Origin: Dyella sedimenti
Lineage (GTDB): Bacteria > Pseudomonadota > Gammaproteobacteria > Xanthomonadales > Rhodanobacteraceae
NCBI RefSeq assembly: GCF_022760995.1
Contig: NZ_JAKWJO010000006.1
Span: forward strand, 1 to 64,000
Length of the DNA: 64,000 nucleotides
Direction of reading: 5' to 3'
Positions within the stretch are counted from its first letter, which is position 1. Every line of letters starts with the position of its first letter. Under the pieces are notes generated by a model. It was given only the letters and a program-made list of their open reading frames with translations, did no database searches and was not told the origin of the DNA. The translations under genes and the position numbers were made by a program. This document shows positions 41,127 through 61,292 of the stretch, one piece after another.

Positions 41127-42692
41127 TCACTCCCGCAACAACAACCGATACGCCGGATTCCCGCTCTCGTCGCGATGGGGATAGCCCAGCGTGTCCAGGA
41201 ACGCCTGGAACAGCGCGCGCTCGTCCGGCGGCACCTGGATGCCGACCAGGATGCGTCCGTAGTCGGCGCCGTGGTTGCGGTAGTGGAACAGGCTGATGTT
41301 CCAGTCCGGGTGCATGTGGCCGAGGAAGCGCGTGAGCGCGCCGGGCCGTTCCGGGAATTCGAAACGGTACAGCCGTTCGTCGCGGGCCAGCGGTGAGCGG
41401 CCGCCGATCATGTGGCGCAGGTGCAGCTTGGCCAGCTCGTCGTCGGTGAGGTCGAGCACGCCGAAGCCATGCGCGCGGAAGGCGTCGATCAGCGTCTGCC
41501 TTTCCTCGCGGTGCGTGGTCTGCACGCCGACGAAGATATGCGCCTCGCTGGCACTGCCGATGCGGTAGTTGAATTCGGTGATGCTGCGCTGGTCCAGTGC
41601 GGCGCAGAAGCGGCGGAAGCTGCCGCGTTCCTCGGGAATGGTGACGGCGAATACCGCCTCGCGCTGCTCGCCCACCTCGGCGCGCTCGGCCACGAAGCGC
41701 AGGCGGTCGAAATTGAGGTTGGCGCCGGAGACCACGGCCACCATCGGGTACTCGGACGCGCCGTGCGCGGCCACGTACTGCTTGAGCCCGGCCAGCGCCA
41801 GCGCGCCGGCCGGCTCGGGCACGCAGCGGGTGTCCTGGAATACGTCGCGGATGGCCGCGCAGAGGGCGTCGGTATCCACCCGCAGCAGGCTGTCCACATA
41901 GCGTTGGCACAGCGCGAAGGTGAGGTCACCCACGCGTTTGACGGCGGTGCCGTCGGAGAACAGGCCAACCTCGGGCAGGCTCACCGGTTCGCCGGCATCC
42001 AGCGAGCGCGCCATCGCATCGGAATCGACGGTCTGCACGCCGATCACCTTCACCTCCGGGCGCAGTGCCTTCACGTAGCCGGCGATGCCGGCGAGCAGGC
42101 CGCCACCGCCCACCGGCACGAAGATCGCGTGCAGCGGCCCGGGATGCTGGCGCAGGATCTCCATGCCCACCGTGGCCTGGCCGGCGATCACCGCGGGATC
42201 GTCGAAGGGATGCACGAAGGTATAGCCGCGCTCGCGCTGCAGCTGGGCGGCGGCGGCCTGGGCGTCGCTGTAGGAATCGCCGGCCAGCACGACCTCCACC
42301 TGCGCGCCGCCGAGGCGCCGCACCGCCTCCACCTTCACCTGCGGGGCGGTCACCGGCATCACGATCACCGCATGGATGCCCAGCCGCGCGGCGGCCAGCG
42401 CCACGCCCTGCGCGTGGTTGCCCGCCGAGGCGGCGATCACGCCGCGCGCGCGCTGCGCGCCGTCCAGCGCGGCCATGCGGTTGTAGGCGCCGCGCAGCTT
42501 GAAGGAAAACACCGGCTGCTGGTCCTCGCGCTTGAGCAGCACGCGCTGGCCCAACCGCGCGGACAGCAGCGGCGCCGCCTCCAGGGCGGTCTCGCGCGCC
42601 ACCTCGTAGACGCGCGCGCGCAGCGTGCGGCGCAGCAGCTCGTGCTCGCTCAGGTCCGCGTCGCGGGGAGGCGGCTGCGCCAGCGCGTTCAT
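41127..42692 (-). CDS. ilvA: threonine ammonia-lyase, biosynthetic
   Basis: A 521-aa PLP enzyme that turns threonine into 2-oxobutanoate, the first step to isoleucine. PLP lysine Lys65 lies in FSFKLRGAY, with SAGNHAQG and VGGGGLLAG loops. Two ACT-like regulatory domains (about 340-415 and 430-515) indicate allosteric control by isoleucine/valine. It overlaps the preceding small-subunit gene (ATGA) and is last in the BCAA unit. Confidence 0.96.
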   Translation of the reverse strand: MNALAQPPPRDADLSEHELLRRTLRARVYEVARETALEAAPLLSARLGQRVLLKREDQQPVFSFKLRGAYNRMAALDGAQRARGVIAASAGNHAQGVALAAARLGIHAVIVMPVTAPQVKVEAVRRLGGAQVEVVLAGDSYSDAQAAAAQLQRERGYTFVHPFDDPAVIAGQATVGMEILRQHPGPLHAIFVPVGGGGLLAGIAGYVKALRPEVKVIGVQTVDSDAMARSLDAGEPVSLPEVGLFSDGTAVKRVGDLTFALCQRYVDSLLRVDTDALCAAIRDVFQDTRCVPEPAGALALAGLKQYVAAHGASEYPMVAVVSGANLNFDRLRFVAERAEVGEQREAVFAVTIPEERGSFRRFCAALDQRSITEFNYRIGSASEAHIFVGVQTTHREERQTLIDAFRAHGFGVLDLTDDELAKLHLRHMIGGRSPLARDERLYRFEFPERPGALTRFLGHMHPDWNISLFHYRNHGADYGRILVGIQVPPDERALFQAFLDTLGYPHRDESGNPAYRLLLRE

Positions 42693-42937
42693 GGCGAGCC
42701 GGCATCCGCCGGATGGCTGACCTCGATGACGTCCACCAGCTTGCGCGTCTGCTTGATGATTTGCTCGACTGTGTCGTCGGCCCCATGCATCACCAGGGTC
42801 AGCTTCGATACCTCCGGATCGTGCGTGGCGGCCACGGTCAGCGAGTCGATGTTGCAGTGGCGCGCGGCGAACAGGCCGGCCACGCGCATCAGCGCGCCGG
42901 ATTCGTTTTGAAGCAGGATGGATAGGGTGTGTTTCAT
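42689..42937 (-). CDS. ilvN: acetolactate synthase small subunit, ACT-only form
   Basis: An 82-aa ACT-domain protein (SILLQNESGALMRVAGLFAARHCNIDSL) that would bind the adjacent large subunit and confer valine feedback. It matches the N-terminal half of the usual 160-aa IlvN/IlvH; the second domain is absent, as in the short IlvM form, so the symbol could equally be ilvM. ATG 42937 is chosen over an in-frame GTG two codons upstream. Its stop overlaps the ilvA start. Confidence 0.85.
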   Translation of the reverse strand: MKHTLSILLQNESGALMRVAGLFAARHCNIDSLTVAATHDPEVSKLTLVMHGADDTVEQIIKQTRKLVDVIEVSHPADAGSP

Positions 42938-42960
42938 GGCCACGCCTACGTTGGGTTGAT

Positions 42961-43001
42961 CGTCACCCCGCCTTTTGCGGGATGCGCCGGGACGATGCGC
43001 G
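42961..43001. repeat. dispersed intergenic repeat, copy 2
   Basis: CACCCCGCCTTTTGCGGGAT followed by CGCCGGGACGATGCGCG resembles the sequence at 27459-27497. It fills the 64-bp gap between ilvB and ilvN and forms a small CCCCGC/GCGGG hairpin. Confidence 0.45.
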
Positions 43002-44873
43002 TCAGAACATGTCGCTCTTCGAGTCCCCCGTTTCCGCCGGTGCCGCGCGCGAGGGAATGAAGTCTCCCGTGATCATCTGCGCATACGTCGTGCCCGGGCC
43101 CACCATCGGGTAGACGCCCGCGTCCGGGTCGATCATCACCTCCAGGAAGGCGGGGCCGCCGAAGGCGAGGAAGTCTGCGATGGCGTCCTCCAGCTCGGCC
43201 TTGTTCTCCAGCCGCCTCGCCCACTCGAAGCCGTCGGCCTGCGCGGCCTTGATGAAGTCCTTCCTGTGCAGGCTCTTGTCGGAGGAGGCGAAGCGGCCAC
43301 GGAAGAACAGCTTCTGCCATTGCCGCACCATGCCGTCGCCGATGTTGTTGAGCACCACCACCTTCACCGGCAGGCCATAGGTGGTGACGGTCTCCAGCTC
43401 GCCCAGGTTCATGCGGATGCTGGCGTCGCCGTCGACGTCGATCACCACCGCGTCGCGCCGCGCGAACTGCGCGCCAATGGCGGCGGGCAGGCCGAAACCC
43501 ATGGTGCCCATCGAGCCAGAGGAGAGCCAGTGGCGCGGCTCGCGGAAGTCGAAGTACTGCGCCGACCACATCTGGTGCTGGCCCACGCCGGTGCTGATGA
43601 CCGCGCGGCCCCGCGTGTGGCGGTTGATGGCCTCGATCACCGCCTGCGGCTGGATCAGCGGGCTGTCGCGGTCGTAGTCCAGCGCGTGCGTGGATTTGAG
43701 CGCGGCGACGTGCGCATGCCAGTCGGCGTAGCGTCCCTCGCTGGCGAAATGGAAGCCGTGCTGCACGCCGTACTGCTGCAGGCGCGACAGGGTGCGGTCG
43801 AGGTCGCCCTGGTGGTGCCAGTCCACCGGCTTGACCTTGCCGATCTCGGCGGGGTCGATGTCGACCTGCGCGATGAAGCGCGCGTGCGGGGCGAAGCGTT
43901 CCGGCACGGTGGCCACGCGGTCGTCGAAGCGTGCGCCCAGCACCAGCAGGAAGTCGCAGTCCTCCACCGCGTAGTTGGCGTAGGCGGTGCCGTGCATGCC
44001 CAGCATGTGCAGCGCCAGCGGCTCGGTGGTGTCCATCGCGCCGATGCCCATCAGGGTAGTGGTCACCGGCAGGCCGAACTGCTGCACGAAGGCGCGCAGG
44101 GTGGCCGAGGCCTCGCCGGCGATGATGCCGCCGCCGGCGTAGATCAGCGGCCGCCTGGCCCGGCCCAGGGCGGTGAAGAAGGCTTCGCACTTGGCGTCGT
44201 CCACGCGCGCGTGCTGGATCGCCAGCTGGCGCGCGCGGTAGCCGGGAATCGGCAGGGTGCCTTCGCCGGCGAAGTCGACCGGGGCGTTCTGCACGTCCTT
44301 GGGGATGTCCACCACCACCGGGCCGGGCCGTCCGCTGCGGGCGATCTCGAAGGCGGTACGCAGCGTGATCTCCAGCCGCGCGGGATCGGTGAGCAGGAAC
44401 ACGTGCTTGGCGCAAGGGCTCATGATGTTGCTGACCGGCGCTTCCTGGAAGGCGTCGCTGCCCAGTGCGGCGGTGGGCACCTGGCCGCAGATCACCACCA
44501 TCGGCACCGAATCGGCCATGGCGTCGCGTACCGGCGTCACCATGTTGGTGGCGCCGGGGCCGGAGGTGACGATGGCCACGCCCACCTTGCCCGAGGCGCG
44601 CGCGTAGCCGGCCGCCATGAAGCCCGCGCCCTGCTCGTTGGCGGGCACGATCAGCGGCATCGGCTCGCCGCCCAGTGGCGACAGATGGGTGGCGTTGAAG
44701 CGGAACACCGCGTCGTACACCGGCAGGATGGCGCCGCCCGAATAGCCGAACAACACGTCCACGCCTTCGTCGGCAAGCACCTGTACCACCACCTCCGCGC
44801 CGCTCATGGTCTGGCCGGCCAGCGGATGGGTGGAGGCCGGGATGGGCATCTCCTTGTGCAGTGGCGCGTTCAC
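43002..44873 (-). CDS. ilvB: acetolactate synthase large subunit
   Basis: A 623-aa thiamine-diphosphate enzyme that forms acetolactate or acetohydroxybutyrate. The catalytic Glu80 is in PANEQGAGFMAAGYA, and the ThDP motif GDASIRMNLGELETV is intact; FAD-binding central domain present. The start appears to be GTG at 44873 with AGGA about 12 bases upstream. A 196-bp gap with repeat-like palindromes separates it from ilvC. In xanthomonads the counterpart is often called ilvG. Confidence 0.95.
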   Translation of the reverse strand: MNAPLHKEMPIPASTHPLAGQTMSGAEVVVQVLADEGVDVLFGYSGGAILPVYDAVFRFNATHLSPLGGEPMPLIVPANEQGAGFMAAGYARASGKVGVAIVTSGPGATNMVTPVRDAMADSVPMVVICGQVPTAALGSDAFQEAPVSNIMSPCAKHVFLLTDPARLEITLRTAFEIARSGRPGPVVVDIPKDVQNAPVDFAGEGTLPIPGYRARQLAIQHARVDDAKCEAFFTALGRARRPLIYAGGGIIAGEASATLRAFVQQFGLPVTTTLMGIGAMDTTEPLALHMLGMHGTAYANYAVEDCDFLLVLGARFDDRVATVPERFAPHARFIAQVDIDPAEIGKVKPVDWHHQGDLDRTLSRLQQYGVQHGFHFASEGRYADWHAHVAALKSTHALDYDRDSPLIQPQAVIEAINRHTRGRAVISTGVGQHQMWSAQYFDFREPRHWLSSGSMGTMGFGLPAAIGAQFARRDAVVIDVDGDASIRMNLGELETVTTYGLPVKVVVLNNIGDGMVRQWQKLFFRGRFASSDKSLHRKDFIKAAQADGFEWARRLENKAELEDAIADFLAFGGPAFLEVMIDPDAGVYPMVGPGTTYAQMITGDFIPSRAAPAETGDSKSDMF

Positions 44874-45037
44874 GGTGGTCGTTTGTCCTGGTTGGCGCCG
44901 CTGTCGCGGCGCTTGGAATGGATGGCCTTGCCGAGGAACTCCCTTCCCTGCGCGTCCCGAAAAGGGACTCCCTACGGTCGCAGGGGAGGGTTGGGGAGGG
45001 GTAAGGCGTGCTGGCGGGAAAGAGCGCCCCCTCCCGA

Positions 45038-45063
45038 CCTCCCCCTGCTCGCGCAGGGGGAGG
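45038..45063. repeat. CCTCCCCCTG/CAGGGGGAGG palindrome
   Basis: 10-bp arms with a CTCGCG centre in the ilvC-ilvB gap, next to another C-rich/G-rich pair at 44950-44990. It could attenuate or stabilise the message inside the operon. Confidence 0.5.
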
Positions 45064-45069
45064 AGACAA

Positions 45070-46083
45070 TCAGCCCGCCTTCTTCAGCGGCTCGGCCGCC
45101 TTCGGCGCATTCGCCTGCAGCCACGGCATGCGCGCGCGCAGCTTCGCGCCCACCTGTTCCACCGGGTGTTCCAGGTCCGCCTGCTTGAACTTCTTGTAGT
45201 TCGGCAGGCCGGCGTTGTATTCGGCGATCCAGTTGCGGGCGAAGGTGCCGTCCTGGATCTCCTTGAGGATGTCCTTCATACGCGCCTTGGTGTCGGCGTC
45301 GATCACGCGCGGGCCGCTGACGTAGTCGCCGTACTGCGCGGTCTCGGAGATGAACTCCAGCATGCGCGAGATGCCGCCCTCGTAGAACAGGTCCACGATC
45401 AGCTTCAGCTCGTGCAGCACCTCGTAGTAGGCGATCTCCGGCTGGTAGCCGGCTTCCACCAGCGTCTCGAAGCCGGCCTGCACCAGCGAGCTGGCGCCGC
45501 CGCACAGCACGGCCTGCTCGCCGAACAGGTCGGTCTCGGTCTCTTCCTTGAAGTCGGTCTTGATCAGCAGCGCGCGGCCGCCGCCGATGCCGTCGGCATA
45601 GGCCCTGGCCTTGGCTTCCGCCTGGCCGCTGACGTCCTGGTACACCGCCCAGATGCACGGCACGCCGCGGCCGATCTCGTACTCGCGGCGCACCAGCGCG
45701 CCGGGGCCCTTGGGCGCCACCAGGATCACGTCGATGTCCGTGCGCGGCTCGATCTGCTTGAAGTGCACGTTGAAGCCGTGCGCGAACAGCAGCGCGGCGC
45801 CGGGCTTGATGTTCGGCTCGATGCTTTCCTTGTAGAGCCTGGGCTGCACCATGTCGGGGGTGAGCACGGCGACCAGGTCGGCACCCTTCACCGCCTCGCC
45901 CGGCTCGGCCACGGCGAAGCCCTCGGCGCGGGCCTTCTCCCACGAGGGACCGCCCGGGCGCAGGCCGACCACCACGTCCAGGCCGGAGTCGCGCAGGTTG
46001 AGGGCGTGGGCGCGTCCCTGGCTGCCATAGCCGAGGACGGCGATGCGGGCCTTGGCCAGCGTGTCGTTGGTGCTGCTGCTCAT
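45070..46083 (-). CDS. ilvC: ketol-acid reductoisomerase (NADP+), class I
   Basis: A 337-aa enzyme for the alkyl migration and reduction step of valine and isoleucine synthesis. The NADP-binding [17 protein letters not shown] lies near the N-terminus (about 19-35). The magnesium-binding [12 protein letters not shown] and the [17 protein letters not shown] region are intact. The size is the short class I form. ATG overlaps the ilvD stop. Confidence 0.97.
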
Positions 46084-47798
46084 GCGGTGACTCCTGCGGT
46101 CGTGGGTTCGTTGGCGTGTTGGGAAACGGGTGCGGAAGCGTGGTGCGCGGCGGAGGGATGCGTGGTGGCGCCGTCCGAGGCCGAGCCGACCAGCTGCGCG
46201 TACTTGGCCAGCGCGCCGCGCGTGACCTTCGGCGCCGGCGGCTGCCAGGTGGCGCGGCGCGCGGCGAGGTCGGCGGTGGTGCTGATCTGGCGCGTGTCGG
46301 CATCGATGCGCACCAGGTCGCCCTCGCGCAGCAGCGCGATGGGGCCGCCGCGCGCCGCCTCTGGCGCGATGTGGCCGACCATGTAGCCATGGGTGGCGCC
46401 GGAGAAACGGCCATCGGTGATCAAGGCCACGTCGTCGCCCAGCCCGCGGCCGACCAATGCGGCGGTGACGCCGAGCATCTCGCGCATGCCGGGGCCGCCC
46501 GCCGGGCCTTCGTTGCGGATCACGATGACGTCGCCCTTGGCGATGGCGCCGCCCTGCACCGCGGCGAAGGCGGCTTCCTCGCTCTCGAACACGCGGGCGC
46601 GGCCTTCGAAGTGATTGGCGCCCTTGCCGGCGAGCTTGAGGATGCAGCCTTCCGGCGCGAGGTTGCCGTACAGGATGGAGTAGCCGCCGCGTGGCTTGAG
46701 CGGCCGGCTGACCGGATGGATCACGTCCTGGCTTTCCGCGCGCGGGGCGGCGGCGGCTTCCTCGAACAGGCTGCGGCCGGTGATGGTGGGCGCGTCGTCC
46801 AGCATGCCGGCGGCGATCAGTTCCTGCGCGACGCGCGCGCTGCCGCCCGCGCCGAACATCTCCACGGCGGTGTAGCGCCCGGCGGGTAGCAGGTCGGCGA
46901 TCACCGGCGTGTGCCTGGAGGCGGGCTCGAAATCCTCCAGCGTCCATGGCGTGCCGGCCTCGCGCGCGATGGCCAGCAGGTGCAGCACGGCGTTGGTGGA
47001 ACCGGCGGTGGCGGCGACCATGCGCGCGGCATTGCGGAAGGCGGTTTCGGTGAGCAGGGCGCGCGGCGTGCGGCCCGCTTTCAGGCATTCCATCACCAGC
47101 TCGCCGCAGCGGCGCGCGGCGGCGGCCTTGGCCGGATGGGTGGCGGGAATATCGTTGAAGCCCAGCGGCGACAGGCCCAGCGCGGACAGCACCATCGCCA
47201 TGGTGTTGGCGGTGAATTGGCCGCCGCAGGCGCCCGCGCCGGGGCAGGCATCGCGCTCGACCGAGGTCAGCTCGGCGTCGTCGATCTTGCCCGCGCCGTG
47301 CGCGCCCACCGCCTCGAACACCTGCTGGATGGTGATGGGATGCGCGTCGTGCAGGCCGTGCGCGATGGTGCCGCCGTAGAGCGCTACGCCGGGGATGTCC
47401 AGCCGCGCCAGCGCCATCGCGGCGGCGGGGATGGTCTTGTCGCAGCCGCACAGCACGACCATCGCGTCGAGGCAGTGGCCGTCCACCGCCAGCTCGATCG
47501 AATCGGTGATCACCTCGCGGCTGATCAGCGAGGCGCGCATGCCCGGCGTACCCATGGCGATGCCGTCGGTGACCGCGATGGTGTTGAACTCCACCGGCGT
47601 GCCGCCGGCGGCGCGGATGCCTTCGGCCACGTGCTCGGCCAGCTCGCGCAGGTTGAGGTTGCAGGGGCTCACGTTCGACCACGTATGCACCACCGCCACC
47701 AGGGGCTTGGCGATGGCCGCGTCGTCCAGGCCGGTGCCGCGCAGCATGGCGCGGGCGGGGGCGCGGTCGGGGCCGGTCTTGATCAGGTCACTGCGCAT
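46080..47798 (-). CDS. ilvD: dihydroxy-acid dehydratase
   Basis: A 572-aa Fe-S dehydratase of the IlvD/Edd family. Cluster cysteines are seen in [16 protein letters not shown] and [13 protein letters not shown], the last a family signature. It catalyses the third common step to valine and isoleucine. Ends with an ATGA overlap to ilvC; the gap to leuB upstream is 79 bp and holds a perfect palindrome. Confidence 0.96.
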
Positions 47799-47830
47799 GG
47801 GGTTTCCGTCGTGAATGAGGTGTCATGGCT

Positions 47831-47854
47831 CCCTCCCCTGCGCGCAGGGGAGGG
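47831..47854. repeat. perfect 24-bp palindrome between leuB and ilvD
   Basis: CCCTCCCCTGCG and its exact inverse CGCAGGGGAGGG abut without a loop. Similar C-rich palindromes occur at 8082 and 45038. It has no T tract. Confidence 0.6.
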
Positions 47855-47877
47855 TCGAAAGCTCGCGCGGGATCGGC

Positions 47878-48975
47878 TCATCCGCCGGCGCGCCCCCAGC
47901 GCAGGAAGGCCGCCGCATGGCAGGCGTGTTCCTCGATGGCGGCGAGCACCGCGTCCAGCACCTCGCGCGTGCCGGCGTTGCCGCCGATGTCGCGCGTGCG
48001 CGGGCCGTGCTCGACCACCTCGGCCACGGCGGCCTCGACCGTCGCGGCCTCCTGCTCCAGGCCCAGCGAGTGGCGCAGCAGCAGGGCGGCGGAGAGGATC
48101 GCGCCGACTGGGTTGGCCAGGCCCTGGCCGGCGATGTCCGGCGCGGAACCGTGGATCGGCTCGTACAAGCCGCCCTTGCCTTCGCCCAGCGAGGCGGAGG
48201 GCAGCAGGCCCAGCGAGCCGGCCAGCGCGGCGGCCTCGTCAGTGAGGATGTCGCCGAACAGGTTCTCGGTCACCACCACGTCGTACTTGCCCGGCTGGGT
48301 GAGCAGCAGCATCGCCATGGAATCGACCAGCTGGTGCTCCAGCTTCACGTCCGGATAGTCGGCGGCGATGCGCTGCACCGTGCCGCGCCACAACCGCGAG
48401 GTTTCGAGCACGTTGGCCTTGTCCACCGAGGTGACGTGCTTGCGGCGTCCGCGCGCCAGTTCGAAGGCACGGCGCACCACGCGCTCGATCTCCGCCACGG
48501 TGTACTTGCATTCGTCGGTGGCGGTATCCGCCGTGCGCGTCTTGGCGCCGAAGTAGGCGCCGCCGGTGAGTTCGCGCACGAACAGCACGTCCACGCCCTT
48601 GAGCTTCTCGTCCTTCAGCGGCGACAGCGCGGCCAGCGCCGGGTGCACCTGCAGCGGGCGCAGGTTGGCGTACACGCCCAGCGCGGCGCGCAGCGCCAGC
48701 AGGCCCTGCTCGGGACGCACCGGCGCGTTGGGATCGGACCACTTGGGGCCGCCCACCGCGCCCAGCAGCACGGCGTCGGCGGCCTTGCAAGCCTCCAGCG
48801 ACGCGGCCGGCAGCGGTTCGCCGGTGGCGTCGATGGCGCCGCCGCCGATCAGCTGTTCCTCGAAATGGAAATGGTGGTCGAAATGCGCGGCGACCGCGTC
48901 GAGCACGGCGACCGCCGCCGCGGTGACCTCGGGGCCGACGCCGTCGCCGGGCAGGGTGACGATATGCGCTCTCAT
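47878..48975 (-). CDS. leuB: 3-isopropylmalate dehydrogenase
   Basis: A 365-aa NAD-dependent dehydrogenase of leucine synthesis. It begins with [14 protein letters not shown], and carries the family signature [19 protein letters not shown] with catalytic/metal Asp residues, plus [17 protein letters not shown] near the C-terminus. ATG overlaps the leuD stop (ATGA). Confidence 0.97.
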
Positions 48976-49616
48976 GGGGTTACTCCGGCTAAACGAGATT
49001 GATCTTGTTGAGGAGTGCGGCCATGGATGGCCGCTTCCCGATCTTCGCGTTCACGGATGAACGCATCGATCAGGTCGCCGTGTTGTTGCAGGTAACCCAG
49101 CTGGTCGACGCCGTTGAGCAGGCAATGGCGGGCGAAGGGTTCGAGCTGGAAGCGGATGCGGCCGCCGTCGGGCAGCGCGATGTACTGCTCGCGCACGTCG
49201 ATGGTCAGCTCGATGCCCGGGTGTTCCAGCAGCCAGCGGTGCTCGGCCTCGTCCAGCACGATGGCGAGCAGGCCGTTCTTCAGCGCGTTGTTGCGGAAGA
49301 TGTCCGCGATCTCGCTGCACAGCACGGCCTGGATGCCGTAGTCCAGCAGCGCCCATGGCGCGTGCTCGCGCGAGGAGCCGCAGCCGAAGTTGCGGCCGGC
49401 GACCAGGATGGCGCAGCCCCTGGCCTGCGGCTGGTTGAGCGGGAAGGCGGGGTTGTCGCTGCCGTCGGCCTGGTAGCGCCAGTCGTTGAAGCACAGCTTG
49501 CCCAGGCCCGCGCGCTCGGTGGTGGTGAGGAAGCGCGCCGGGATGATGCGGTCGGTGTCGATGTTCTCGTCCGCCAGCACGGCGGTGCGGGAATGGATGC
49601 GGGTGATGGGTTTCAT
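48972..49616 (-). CDS. leuD: 3-isopropylmalate dehydratase small subunit
   Basis: A 214-aa small subunit with the swivel-domain loop [14 protein letters not shown] and the start [20 protein letters not shown]. The C-terminal 25 residues (from about [14 protein letters not shown]) are coded by a repeat that is also found at the end of ilvE and are probably not part of the ancestral fold. Both ends are ATGA overlaps, with leuC before and leuB after. Confidence 0.96.
49007..49048 (-). repeat. AAIHG-tail coding repeat, copy in leuD
   Basis: About 34 of 42 bases match the segment at 51054-51096. The core GGCCATGGATGGCC has 6-bp inverted arms. In the leuD frame it codes [14 protein letters not shown]. 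Confidence 0.7.
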
Positions 49617-51025
49617 GCGGCGGCCTCGGTCATGTACTCGCGCGGATCGGCAATGCGCCCGGCCACGGCGGACGCCGCAGCGGTGGCCGGGCTCGCCAGC
49701 ACGGTGCGCGCGCCCTTGCCCTGGCGGCCCTCGAAATTGCGGTTGGAGGTGCTCACCACCAGCTGGCCCGGCTGCGCCAGGTCGCCGTTCATGGCGATGC
49801 ACATCGAGCAGCCCGGTACGCGCCACTCGGCGCCGGCGGCGGTGAACACCTGGTGCAAGCCCTCGCGCTCGGCGTCGCGGCGCACCGCCTCGGAACCGGG
49901 CACTACCAGCATGCGCACGCCTTCGGCGACGCGTCGGCCACGCAGCACGCGGGCCGCCTCGCGCAGGTCCGACAGGCGCGAGTTGGTGCAGCTGCCGACG
50001 AACACCACGTCCACCGGCGTGCCCTGCATCGGCTTGCCGGGTTCGCTTTTCATGTAGTCGAGCGCGCGCTTCTCCACCGCGTTGCGCGCGGCGGGCACCG
50101 GCTTGTCCATGGCGATCGCCATGCCGGGGTGGGTGCCGTAGGTGACGGTGGGACGCACCTTGGCGGCGTCGATGCGCACCTCGCGGTCGTACACCGCGCC
50201 CTCGTCGCTGCACAGCGTGCGCCAGTACGCCACGGCGGCATCCCAGGCGGCGCCCTGCGGCGCGCGCGGTCGGCCCTTCAGCCAGGCGAAGGTGGTCTCG
50301 TCCGGCGCGATCAGGCCCGCGCGCGCGCCGGCCTCGATCGACATGTTGCACACCGTCATGCGCTCTTCCATCGACAGCGCCTCGATGGCCGCGCCGCGGT
50401 ACTCGATGACGTGGCCGGTGCCGCCGTCCACGCCGATCTCGCCGATGATGTGCAGCACCAGATCCTTGGCGCCCACGCCGGCGGGCAGGGCGCCGTCCAC
50501 GTGGATCGCCAGCGTCTTCGCCTTGCGCTGCAGCAGGCACTGCGTGGCCAGCACGTGGCCGACCTCGGTGGTGCCGATGCCGAAGGCCAGCGCGCCGAAC
50601 GCGCCGTGGGTGGAGGTGTGGCTGTCGCCGCACACGATGGTCATGCCGGGCTGGGTGGCGCCCAGTTCCGGGCCGATCACATGCACGATGCCGCGGTCGG
50701 CGCTGTCCCAGCCATGCAGTTCCACGCCGAACTCGCGGCAGTTGGTTTCCAGCTGCGTCACCTGCGCCTTCGCCTCGGCGGTGGCGTAGGGACGCTCGCC
50801 GCTGGCGTCGGCAGGCAGGGTGGGGGTGGAATGATCCAGCGTGGCCAGCGTGCGGTCCGGCCGGCGCAGCCTCAGGCCGCGCTCGCGCAGCTCGCTGAAG
50901 GCCTGCGGCGAGGTCACCTCGTGCACCAGGTGCAGGTCGATGTAGAGGATGGCCGGGGTGTCGGCGGTTTCCGGCGCGACGACGTGCGCGTCCCAGACTT
51001 TCTCGAAAAGCGTCTTGGCGCTCAT
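49613..51025 (-). CDS. leuC: 3-isopropylmalate dehydratase large subunit
   Basis: A 470-aa aconitase-family subunit. The three cluster cysteines are seen in [10 protein letters not shown] and [10 protein letters not shown]; the start [13 protein letters not shown] is typical. Together with LeuD it isomerises 2- to 3-isopropylmalate. ATG at 51025 overlaps the ilvE stop (ATGA), and its own stop overlaps leuD. Confidence 0.97.
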
Positions 51026-52026
51026 GCCACGGCTCCCATCGATGCGGACTGTTGCTGAGGAGCGAGGCCATGGATGGCCGCTTTTTGGTCTTCGTGGTCG
51101 GGGGCGACCACACCGGATACGGGGGTCAGCCAATGCCACTTGTCTTCGGTCGTGCCATCGAACAGACCGAAGAACGCCTTCTGCAGCGCGCGCGTGACCT
51201 CGCCCGGTCGTCCCGCGCCCACCGGCTTGCGGTCGACCGAGCGCACCGGCGTGATCTCGGCGGCGGTGCCGGTCATGAACACCTCGTCGGCGGTGTACAG
51301 CGCCTCGCGCGGCAGGTCGCGCTCCTCCACCGGGATGCCCAGTTCGCCGGCCAGGGCGATCACCGACTCGCGGGTGATGCCGGCCAGGATGCCCGCGCTG
51401 CTTGGCGGCGTGAGCAGCTTGCCGTGCTTGACCAGAAACAGGTTCTCGCCGGCGCCCTCGCTGAGCAGGCCGTTGTGGCCCAGCGCGATGCCCTCGGCAT
51501 AGCCGCCGCGCCGCGCTTCCAGCGCGATCAGCTGGCTGGAGAGGTAATTGCCGCCGGCCTTGGCCCAGCTGGGCAAGGTGTTCGGCGCGGGGCGATGCCA
51601 GGAGGACACGCAGACGTCCGCGCCGTGCTCGATGGCGTCGCCCAGGTAGGCGCCCCATTCCAGCGCCATGATCGCCACGTCCACCGGCGAGTCGCCCTTG
51701 GGCAGCACGCCCAGGCCGCCGGCGCCGCGGAACACGATGGGCCGCACGTAGGCCGCCTTCATGCGGTTGGCGCGGATCACCTCGTGGCAGGCGGCGTTGA
51801 TTTCCTCCTCGCTGTAGCCGATCTCGATCTCATAGATCTTGGCCGACTCGAACAGCCGGCGGGTGTGGTCGGCGAGGCGGAAATAGGCCGGGCCCTGCGG
51901 CGTGGCGTAGACGCGCTCGCCCTCGAACACCGAGGAGCCGTAGTGCAGCGCGTGCGTGCTGACGTGGACCGTGGCCTCGGTCCACGGCTTGATCTGTCCG
52001 TTGTGCCAGAGGAATGGCGTAGTCAT
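51022..52026 (-). CDS. ilvE: branched-chain-amino-acid aminotransferase
   Basis: A 334-aa fold-type IV PLP aminotransferase, the final step for all three amino acids. PLP lysine Lys156 is in [29 protein letters not shown] and [12 protein letters not shown] are signatures. The last 25 residues include [14 protein letters not shown], coded by the same repeat seen in leuD. GGGAG precedes ATG 52026; the gap to leuA is 16 bp. Confidence 0.96.
51054..51096 (-). repeat. AAIHG-tail coding repeat, copy in ilvE
   Basis: Partner of 49007-49048, in the same orientation and at the same place, just before the stop codon. It codes [14 protein letters not shown]. Confidence 0.7.
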
Positions 52027-52042
52027 GGAAAGCTCCCAGGGA

Positions 52043-53635
<1,593 letters not shown>

Positions 53636-53670: not shown

Positions 53671-53703
53671 AAAAAACCCCGCATCCTGGTCGGGTGCGGG
53701 GTT
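53671..53703 (-). terminator. attenuator terminator before leuA
   Basis: Read in the leuA direction, AACCCCGCA pairs with TGCGGGGTT (9 bp) and a TTTTTT tract follows, 36 bases before leuA. No gene ends here except the leader peptide, so it is an attenuator. Confidence 0.88.
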
Positions 53704-53760
53704 CTTGGTGGTATTCAGGTGTTTTTCTAGTTACCTGGACACACGCCCTTAGCCCGCACC
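53671..53760 (-). promoter_or_regulatory. antiterminator/terminator switch of BCAA operon
   Basis: GGTGCGGG at 53760-53753, which is the last codons of the leader peptide, is exactly complementary to CCCGCACC at 53700-53693, the 5' arm of the terminator. The two pairings exclude each other. A ribosome stalled on the Leu/Val/Ile codons would leave GGTGCGGG free to form the antiterminator; a ribosome that reaches the stop codon would cover it and let the terminator form. Confidence 0.75.
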
Positions 53761-53886
53761 TCCGTTGGTAATAAGGAGTACGAGTACAAGGGCAAGAAGG
53801 AGGTTGTCGCGAAGCCGCAGGAGGCCCGCGGCCGCCGTGGGGCGGATGGGCTCGGCAATGCGATCATGGCTGTTGCGCTGCGACAT
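53749..53886 (-). CDS. BCAA operon leader peptide, 45 aa
   Basis: A 45-codon frame from ATG 53886 to TAA 53749. Codons 29-39 read LLLALVLVLLI: seven Leu, two Val, one Ile. In that run the codons are CTC, CTT, GTA and ATT only, without the otherwise dominant CTG or GTG. A TTAGGG eight bases before the ATG could be an RBS. This is the layout of ilv/leu leader peptides such as IlvL, controlling the operon by translation-coupled attenuation. Confidence 0.82.
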   Translation of the reverse strand: MSQRNSHDRIAEPIRPTAAAGLLRLRDNLLLALVLVLLITNGGAG

Positions 53887-53893
53887 GCCGACG

Positions 53894-53923
53894 ACCCTAA
53901 CGGCGGGTGCAAGGGCTTGTCAA
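53894..53923 (-). promoter_or_regulatory. candidate promoter of BCAA operon
   Basis: TTGACA at 53923-53918, then 18 bases, then TAGGGT at 53899-53894. The -35 is perfect, the -10 weak. If used, transcription would start within a few bases of the leader ATG, giving an almost leaderless message. Confidence 0.35.
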
Positions 53924-59834: not shown

Positions 59835-61292
59835 ATGACCAAGCGACTCCTCCGCGCCGTGCTGGCCGGCGCGCTCACCCTTGCCGCCGGGACCGCGATG
59901 GCGGCGACGGCGCCCGGGGCGGCCCCGTCCTTGACGTACCAGGCCCTGCCCAGGGACCAGCGCGCCGCCATCGACGAGCTGGAGCAGCGCACCTTCCAGT
60001 GGTTCTGGGACAGCGCCGATGCGAAGACCGGCCTGGTGCCCGACCACTATCCCGGGCCTTCCTTCGCCAGCATCGCCTCGGTGGGGTTCGCGCTGACCGT
60101 CTACGGCGTGGGCGTGGAGCGCGGCTACGTCACCCGCCAGCAGGCCGCCGAGCGTACCCTGGCCACGCTGCGCTTCTTCAACGACGCGCCGCAGGGCGCC
60201 GACGAGGATGGCGTTGCCGGCTACCAGGGCTTCTTCTATCACTTCCTCGACATGCGGACCGGCCGGCGCTACGGGCGCGGCATCGAGCTGTCCAGCGTGG
60301 ACACCACGCTGCTGCTGGGCGGCGTGCTGTTCGCGCAGTCGTACTTCGACCGCGACAACCAGGACGAGAAGGAGATCCGCCGGCTCGCCGACGCGATCTA
60401 CCGCCGCGTCGACTGGACCTGGATGCAGCCGCACGCGCCGCTCGTCAGCATGGGCTGGACGCCGGGCGGCAAGTTCATCCCCGCCGACTGGAAGGGCTAC
60501 AGCGAAGGCATGCTGGTCTACGTGCTGGCGCTGGGCTCGCCCACCCATCCGGTCGCCGATGGCGCGTGGCAGGCCTGGACGAGCACCTATCCCAAGCAGT
60601 GGGGCGAGTTCCAGGGGCGCACCTTCCTCAATTTCGCGCCGCTGTTCGGCCACCAGTACAGCCATGCGTGGATCGACTTCCGCGGCATCCAGGATGGCTG
60701 GAGCCGCGACCACCACACCGACTATTTCCAGAACAGCCGCCAGGCCACCTATGCCCAGCGCGCCTACGCCATCGCCAACCCGAACCATTGGGACGGCTAC
60801 GGCGAGAATATCTGGGGCCTGACCGCCTGCAACGGGCCGGGCGACGCGGTGGTCAAGCGCAACGATGGCGGCACGCGCGCCTTCTACGGCTATACCGCGC
60901 GCGGCGCGGGACTCGACTACGTCTCCGATGACGGTACCATCGCCCCGACCGCCGCCGGCGGTTCCATCGCGTTCGCGCCGGAAATCGTGGTGCCCGCGCT
61001 GATGGCGATGAAGGCGCGCTACGGCGACGCCGTGTACGGCAAGTATGGTTTCGTCGATGCGTTCAACCCCAGCTACGACACCGGCCTGGCGCCGAAGGAA
61101 GGACGCGCGGTGCCCGGCATGGGCTGGGCCGACGACAAGCAGATCGGCATCGACCAGGGACCGATCGTGTTGATGATCGAGAACTGGCGCAGCGGCTTCG
61201 TATGGAACGTGATGCGCAAGAACCCCTACATCCGCAAGGGCCTGGAACGGGCCGGCTTCACCGGCGGCTGGCTGGACGGCAAGCGCGGCTAG
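59835..61292 (+). CDS. glycoamylase-like (PF10091, GH144-type) secreted glycosidase
   Basis: A 485-aa protein with a signal peptide (about 1-24, ending AMAA) and a single glycoamylase-like (alpha/alpha)6 domain. Signatures include RTFQWFWDSADAKTGLVPD, SVGFALTVYGVGVERG, and near the C-terminus FNPSYDTGLA and IDQGPIVLMIENWRSGFVW. The PF10091 group includes GH144 endo-beta-1,2-glucanases and sophorose-releasing enzymes, so a beta-1,2-glucan substrate is the leading guess. Periplasmic or secreted. It lies 83 bp after the receptor. Confidence 0.88.
   Translation: MTKRLLRAVLAGALTLAAGTAMAATAPGAAPSLTYQALPRDQRAAIDELEQRTFQWFWDSADAKTGLVPDHYPGPSFASIASVGFALTVYGVGVERGYVTRQQAAERTLATLRFFNDAPQGADEDGVAGYQGFFYHFLDMRTGRRYGRGIELSSVDTTLLLGGVLFAQSYFDRDNQDEKEIRRLADAIYRRVDWTWMQPHAPLVSMGWTPGGKFIPADWKGYSEGMLVYVLALGSPTHPVADGAWQAWTSTYPKQWGEFQGRTFLNFAPLFGHQYSHAWIDFRGIQDGWSRDHHTDYFQNSRQATYAQRAYAIANPNHWDGYGENIWGLTACNGPGDAVVKRNDGGTRAFYGYTARGAGLDYVSDDGTIAPTAAGGSIAFAPEIVVPALMAMKARYGDAVYGKYGFVDAFNPSYDTGLAPKEGRAVPGMGWADDKQIGIDQGPIVLMIENWRSGFVWNVMRKNPYIRKGLERAGFTGGWLDGKRG

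Follow-up and report, generated by a model that had tools for sequence, protein, structure and literature searches.

A predicted attenuator on an apparently leaderless transcript ahead of the branched-chain amino acid genes of Dyella sedimenti

Attenuation requires fast loading of the first ribosome and its coupling to RNA polymerase. The region upstream of leuA in Dyella sedimenti raises the question of whether a single short leader could control all of the genes for branched-chain amino acid (BCAA) synthesis that follow it, and where the transcript of such a leader would begin. The 64,000 nucleotides analysed (contig NZ_JAKWJO010000006.1, positions 1 to 64,000) are referred to as the window, and coordinates are positions within it. 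Judged from sequence comparison, a ribosome-mediated attenuator very probably stands ahead of leuA-ilvE-leuCDB-ilvDC-ilvGM-ilvA. The leader and the genes behind it are:

53749..53886, minus strand: leader peptide ORF of 45 codons plus TAA (translation)
53770..53802, minus strand: control codons LLLALVLVLLI, codons 29-39, with region 1 inside the run (translation, family conservation, partly rare synonymous codons)
52043..53635, minus strand: leuA, first structural gene of the unit (Pfam HMGL-like and LeuA_dimer)
41127..52030, minus strand: ilvE (start approximate), leuC, leuD, leuB, ilvD, ilvC, ilvG (large subunit), ilvM (small subunit) and ilvA (Pfam and NCBIfam)

The leader and the genes behind it

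The original prediction, made from the letters of the sequence, placed here a 45-codon frame with LLLALVLVLLI near its end. Translation confirmed this frame at 53886-53749 (-), with the product MSQRNSHDRIAEPIRPTAAAGLLRLRDNLLLALVLVLLITNGGAG*. Codons 29-39 read CTC CTT CTT GCC CTT GTA CTC GTA CTC CTT ATT, in agreement with the further claim that the Leu, Val and Ile residues of the run are coded only by CTC, CTT, GTA and ATT. The run comprises 7 Leu, 2 Val, 1 Ile and 1 Ala, and six sense codons separate it from the stop codon; from these codons (7 Leu, 2 Val, 1 Ile), sensing of all three amino acids is predicted. Codon counts from five of the operon's genes show that CTT accounts for 1% of Leu codons, GTA for 3% of Val codons and ATT for 5% of Ile codons, whereas CTC is not rare (20% of Leu codons). 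The control run thus leans to rare codons, yet it is not built of rare codons alone. The leader peptide matched none of the Pfam or NCBIfam models.

Just upstream of the operon there is therefore a short ORF with many codons for the pathway's own amino acids. Behind it, ten genes follow on one strand, down to 41127, in the order leuA-ilvE-leuCDB-ilvDC-ilvGM-ilvA (Pfam, NCBIfam). The products of ilvG and ilvM are the large and small subunits of acetolactate synthase, and that of ilvA is threonine ammonia-lyase. Gene order and strand suggest that the ten genes are co-transcribed, and gene order makes control of the whole unit by the leader likely. A weak terminator-like site in the gap between ilvC and ilvG (44985-44970, minus strand) could split the unit; a terminator scan of the unit's region returned 3 such sites, compared with a mean of 5.0 in shuffles. 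The leuA product is 92% identical to those of the nearest named relatives, D. silvae and D. japonica. Elsewhere in the window, ARAGORN called a lone tRNA-Pro(agg) at 60691-60780 (-) amid long ORFs, possibly a false positive.

Promoter position and the start of the leader

The proposed promoter consists of two elements:

53918..53923, minus strand: -35 element TTGACA (TTGAC at a fixed distance in the family)
53894..53899, minus strand: -10 element TAGGGT, with an 18-nt spacer and 7 nt before the ATG (sequence; commonest family geometry)

Within the window's family, leuA was matched at E 0.001 in 226 of 233 genomes, some of these matches being distant relatives only, and the sample comprised the regions upstream of the 150 best-scoring leuA loci out of the 226 genomes with matches. 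For the counts of leader ends, LVLVLLI and the arms over the 150 loci, the leader was chosen by Leu, Val and Ile density alone, and a leader-like ORF was present upstream of leuA at every locus. TTGAC was found 35-38 nt ahead of the leader ATG in 144/144 leaders to which an ATG was automatically assigned, and only 8 other TTGAC occurred in the 150 nt upstream of them. The six remaining leaders were checked apart and had TTGAC at 36-37 nt, giving 150/150 at 35-38 nt. In the control on leuA starts, TTGAC was found 34-39 nt before the leuA ATG in 0/144. The commonest arrangement was an 18-nt spacer followed by 7 nt to the ATG (95/144, with a script that favours TATAAT-like hexamers), and the distance from the -10 element to the ATG was 7 nt in 112/144 leaders. 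If this promoter is used, such a distance leaves no room for a Shine-Dalgarno sequence. From promoter spacing, the first base of the leader transcript is predicted to be the A of the ATG, at 53886. The leader thus looks leaderless, which is unusual for attenuator switches.

The same geometry was observed in a second family of the order, f2, which is called Lysobacter-like because named Lysobacter loci bear the same MTQR..H leader. Among the best 30 loci of 67 genomes with ilvD matches, TTGAC was located 36-38 nt before an in-frame ATG in 30/30. Among the best 30 of 71 genomes with thrA matches, 28 threonine leaders had the promoter-ATG geometry: 25 were found by script at 36-39 nt (one, L360, being weak) and three by reading (L363, L364 and L367). 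The thrA upstream regions L357 and L362 showed no such threonine leader geometry. The ilvC set (best 30 of 67 genomes with matches) contained leaders at 6/30 loci, all six with the geometry; in this set other leaders sit behind ilvD, and at least one known leader was missed by the threshold.

Could the leader instead belong to an ordinary attenuator with a normal 5' UTR, its true promoter lying further upstream and its translation depending on a Shine-Dalgarno sequence? The -10 match is weak and a generic promoter scan called no promoter at the leader. Moreover, 30/144 leaders (88/144 for leuA) have a Shine-Dalgarno-like run of 4-5 bases no more than 20 nt from the ATG, though many of the leader runs overlap the proposed -10 element. 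The first ATG is the only in-frame ATG, GTG or TTG before the last 20 codons in 80/144 leaders, and others exist in 64/144. Because the generic scans called neither promoter nor terminator, and because of these 64 leaders, confidence in the full mechanism was lowered slightly and that in a normal 5' UTR raised slightly. However, the TTGAC spacing, fixed in all 150 family leaders and seen again in f2 (36-39 nt, in the BCAA leaders and most threonine leaders), is the one expected if the ATG is +1, and the base at -1 is C in 135/144. A normal 5' UTR is thus considered unlikely, and the leaderless reading is preferred.

The conserved 5' module

The start of the leader frame carries a further conserved element:

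53866..53886, minus strand: 5' module ATGTCGCAGCGCAACAGCCAT, which holds the predicted start of the transcript and the start codon, taken as leaderless; consensus ATG NCG CAN CGC ANC ANC CAC (base and codon tables, entropies)

Among the 144 leaders, codon 2 was TCG in 95, CCG in 27, ACG in 21 and TTC in 1; codon 4 was CGC in all 144; codon 5 was AAC, AGC or ACC in 141; and codon 6 was AGC, AAC or ACC in 137. In the 119 leaders of 45 codons, mean entropies at codon positions 1, 2 and 3 were 0.27, 0.43 and 0.40 bits for codons 2-7, compared with 1.07, 1.12 and 1.07 bits for codons 8-25. The first ~20 coding bases therefore look constrained partly at the nucleotide level, and with low entropy at each position of codons 2-7, constraint may act on the nucleotides and on the peptide. 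Conservation of the first codons at the protein level only is less likely, as Ser, Pro and Thr at codon 2 keep the same CG. Thr codons in five genes of the window are 73% ACC and 26% ACG, and the Thr codon at position 2 is nonetheless ACG. An unusually unstructured frame start was also considered and was unsupported (-3.61 kcal/mol vs -3.73 in its own shuffles), although the frame start is less structured than inner leader windows (-9.13 kcal/mol). In an excerpt of the review PMC9031893, citing Martin-Farmer and Janssen 1999, CA repeats just 3' of the start codon are said to enhance leaderless translation.

The combined promoter and module pattern TTGACN{28,34}ATGNCGCANCGCANC was present in 141/398 genomes of the order, and its reversed control in two genomes among the matches listed. 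Twenty promoter-module sites outside the window's family were read, of which 18 were BCAA or threonine leaders and 2 were neither. The exact pattern occurs once in the window's own genome; looser matches to the module number 220, and among the 16 examined only the leader has such a promoter. Nine f2 genomes carried promoter and module at least twice, with two sites 5-7 kb apart, and in the seven of these that were read a BCAA leader precedes ilvD and a threonine leader (for instance ...AITTGTGTT...) precedes thrA. A family search of one ilvD example (L370) identified dihydroxy-acid dehydratase. L338 was identified as aspartate kinase, its best model being bifunctional aspartate kinase/homoserine dehydrogenase I, with the partial sequence below that model's cut-off. 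Across the thrA upstream regions L338-L367 (also L318, L326 and L332), threonine leaders share the geometry of the BCAA leaders, and some share the 5' module. Many have the geometry without the module (MHPAFA..., MPLV...), and the geometry is thus the more general feature.

Two further occurrences were noted. At L330 (G476:C1:2954120), promoter and module stand ahead of a frame resembling a TonB-dependent receptor, which may be chance or another leaderless gene. Outside the leuA set, region-2 sequence and promoter plus module occur together in many genomes of genus g16 (e.g. G106:C1:287356-287523).

A second alternative, compatible with an attenuator on leaderless mRNA, is that the leader RNA or peptide, once released, has an additional function in trans, with the 5' module as seed or effector, by analogy with rnTrpL/peTrpL of S. 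meliloti. The module is conserved beyond the needs of the switch and is common to BCAA and some threonine leaders, and an excerpt of PMC7298713 supplies the precedent. Yet many threonine leaders have no module, and a role in translation initiation is a simpler account of it; action in trans therefore appears improbable. A broader proposal can be put forward tentatively, and is itself rather doubtful. Both families, presumably the Rhodanobacteraceae and the Lysobacter/Xanthomonas family, would use leaderless biosynthetic attenuators, and the ~20-nt module AUG-NCG-CAN-CGC-ANC-ANC of their BCAA leaders and some threonine leaders would be an element in its own right, serving either to load ribosomes and time the lead one relative to RNA polymerase or as a common trans seed of released leader RNAs.

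RNA arms and the proposed switch

Beyond the control codons, the preferred reading of a leaderless attenuator depends on the following elements:

53753..53763, minus strand: region 2, GGAGGTGCGGG, with the potential to form the 1:2 hairpin with control-codon segment 53784-53775 or the antiterminator with region 3
53693..53701, minus strand: region 3, CCCCGCACC (sequence, pairing, family conservation)
53671..53701, minus strand: intrinsic terminator (regions 3:4) and T6 tract (sequence; hairpin and T tract in 149/150 family loci)

The claim that an arm in the last codons is exactly complementary to the 5' arm of the T-tract terminator was borne out: GGTGCGGG at 53760-53753 (-) and CCCGCACC at 53700-53693 (-) are exact complements. 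An antiterminator arm with the potential to exclude the terminator thus overlaps the end of the leader. The terminator hairpin CCCCGCACCCGACCAGGATGCGGGG spans 53701-53677 (-), between the leader and the first gene, and is followed by TTTTTT at 53676-53671 (-); a generic terminator scan made no call at 53671..53701. The alternative folds that had been proposed were recovered by RNAfold as pairing potential. Region 2 pairs with region 3 while region 4 is not yet made, and once region 4 is present the terminator has the minimum free energy, which a free region 2 does not change. Antitermination must consequently be kinetic, and a terminator that wins in free energy once region 4 exists is as expected of a kinetic switch. 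RNAfold also predicts a protector 1:2 hairpin between the control codons and region 2, in which CTCGTACTCC pairs with GGAGGTGCGGG. This hairpin and the leaderless start are additions to the original prediction.

These elements are strongly conserved in the family. The peptide ends in GGAG in 149/150 leaders, and the remaining leader ends in RRGAG; an earlier leader-choosing script favoured ORFs ending in GAG, and the GGAG count is unchanged (149/150) when this bonus is removed. LVLVLLI is found at the matching place in 130/150, GGTGCGGG within the last 20 nt of the leader in 148/150 and CCCGCACC within 120 nt past the stop in 139/150, the other 11 having no exact CCCGCACC. The bases of GGAGGTGCGGG are 99-100% conserved, and a hairpin followed by T's is present at 149/150 family and 29/30 f2 loci. 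In an alignment of 149 rows, standard pairs occupy 99.5% of cells for 2:3, 98.0% and 87.6% for the inner and outer stems of 1:2, and 93.9% for 3:4, where just 85/147 rows have a standard innermost pair. The terminator shows double changes at two of its pairs and the outer 1:2 stem at one, each confined to one or two rows, and 2:3 shows none. When region 2 was shuffled (100 shuffles each), five or fewer shuffles paired as well in 132/149 family and 20/29 f2 sequences; the 2:3 duplex beat all 100 in only 17/149 and 7/29, respectively.

Conservation of the run and hairpins in relatives had been set beforehand as a test of the original prediction, and was found. The expectation that run and arms would co-vary upstream of leuA fared less evenly, as the elements are conserved and covariation is weak because the arms hardly vary; the pattern of the arms is one of conservation more than covariation. 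Overall, family conservation, together with the BCAA enzymes and ilvA behind the leader, supports the reading as leader-peptide attenuation. Short ORFs are frequent in GC-rich DNA, but a chance ORF before a simple terminator, with no ribosome control, is extremely improbable given that the codon run, stop position and arms are conserved across 150 family loci.

The last leader codons also contain GGAGGTG (53763-53757, minus strand), a 7-base Shine-Dalgarno core that is kept in 145/150 family leaders and uses rare Gly codons (GGA 3%, GGT 2%). At the stop codon it might delay the ribosome and hold region 2; pairing with region 1 also accounts for it.

From what is observed directly, namely sequence, conservation, pairing potential, promoter-ATG geometry and gene content, we infer the following course of transcript start, translation, stalling and regulation. 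Transcription would begin at the leader ATG or no more than 1-2 nt away, which is probable from the conserved promoter spacing. A ribosome would need no Shine-Dalgarno sequence to load on the 5'-terminal AUG, though the CA-rich frame start may help, and it would then trail RNA polymerase. Scarcity of charged tRNA-Leu, -Val or -Ile would make it stall on the codon run and cover region 1, so that GGTGCGGG (region 2) could pair with CCCGCACC (region 3) and leuA to ilvA would be transcribed. With enough charged tRNAs, the ribosome would reach the stop codon and cover region 2, and the 3:4 terminator would form. In the absence of translation, 1:2 and 3:4 would both form and transcription would end. 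This full mechanism, in which a leaderless mRNA would carry a ribosome-mediated attenuator of the type of E. coli thrL and ilvL, is given high confidence.

The attenuator by itself is one more case of a known type; what appears to be novel is the apparent leaderless start, in two pathways and two families, with a partly shared module. Two families with apparently leaderless leaders in two pathways would offer a natural test of how Shine-Dalgarno-independent initiation couples to transcription, and the conserved 5' sequences are natural material for asking what aids leaderless translation. Such leaders also point to small genes, possibly overlooked by gene callers, with which BCAA and threonine operons open.

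Comparison with known systems

In E. coli, leuL senses Leu ahead of leuABCD, ilvL senses Leu, Val and Ile ahead of ilvGMEDA, and thrL has a 5' UTR of ~42 nt. Unlike the separate operons of leuL and ilvL, each with its own leader, in the window one leader precedes both gene sets. The thrL leader of E. coli K-12 (NC_000913) shares the region 2/3/4 core of the window leader, ending in NGAG* with GGTGCGGGCTGA, followed by CCCGCACC...GTGCGGGC and T's. It differs in having Thr and Ile codons before thrA, in contrast to Leu, Val and Ile codons before leuA. The switch core thus appears to be that of a classical attenuator, and the sensed amino acids differ. Rfam returned no family at the gathering cut-off for the window leader region; relaxed to E 10, it gave Thr_leader at 24.2 bits (gathering 55, E 0.018) and no Leu_leader.

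Reading by eye of the ~600 nt that precede hisG, trpE and the aspartate kinase gene in the window's own genome revealed no leader. Short BCAA-rich ORFs were observed before an apparent ilvC (by eye) in metagenome-assembled genomes labelled Chromatiales and Proteobacteria (L047 near 8874, L055 near 8876), and these also look leaderless, with TTGACA and CATTAT or CATGAT just before the ATG and no 5' module. BCAA-rich short ORFs before terminators at L025, L034 and L041 (near 8813, 7250 and 8830) have a longer TTGACA-to-ATG distance, and hence not every such leader looks leaderless.

Vitreschak et al. 2004 is reportedly the main comparative study of proteobacterial attenuators and may list BCAA or threonine attenuators of this order. 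The attenuator itself may thus already be predicted in earlier comparative work. The titles and abstract openings found, with the subscription literature mostly outside their scope, mention no leader peptides of the leaderless kind in Xanthomonas, Lysobacter or Dyella relatives.

Precedents for a leaderless start are found in other bacteria. According to excerpts of PMC11857589, the BCAA leader transcript of the C. glutamicum ilvBNC attenuator starts a single nt away from the start codon of the leader; this system differs from that of the window in belonging to an Actinobacterium, with a 15-residue leader ahead of ilvBNC only. For S. meliloti trpL, the portion of PMC7298713 consulted gives the 5' end of the attenuated RNA as the ATG of the leader ORF, although here the host is an Alphaproteobacterium, the amino acid is Trp, and both RNA and peptide are reported to act in trans. 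Finally, the mycobacterial poly-Cys ORFs (CysL) are described as leaderless, short, amino-acid-responsive attenuators (Canestrari 2020, as cited in excerpts of PMC9031893 and PMC13236596), and differ from the BCAA leader of Dyella in responding to cysteine and in occurring in mycobacteria.
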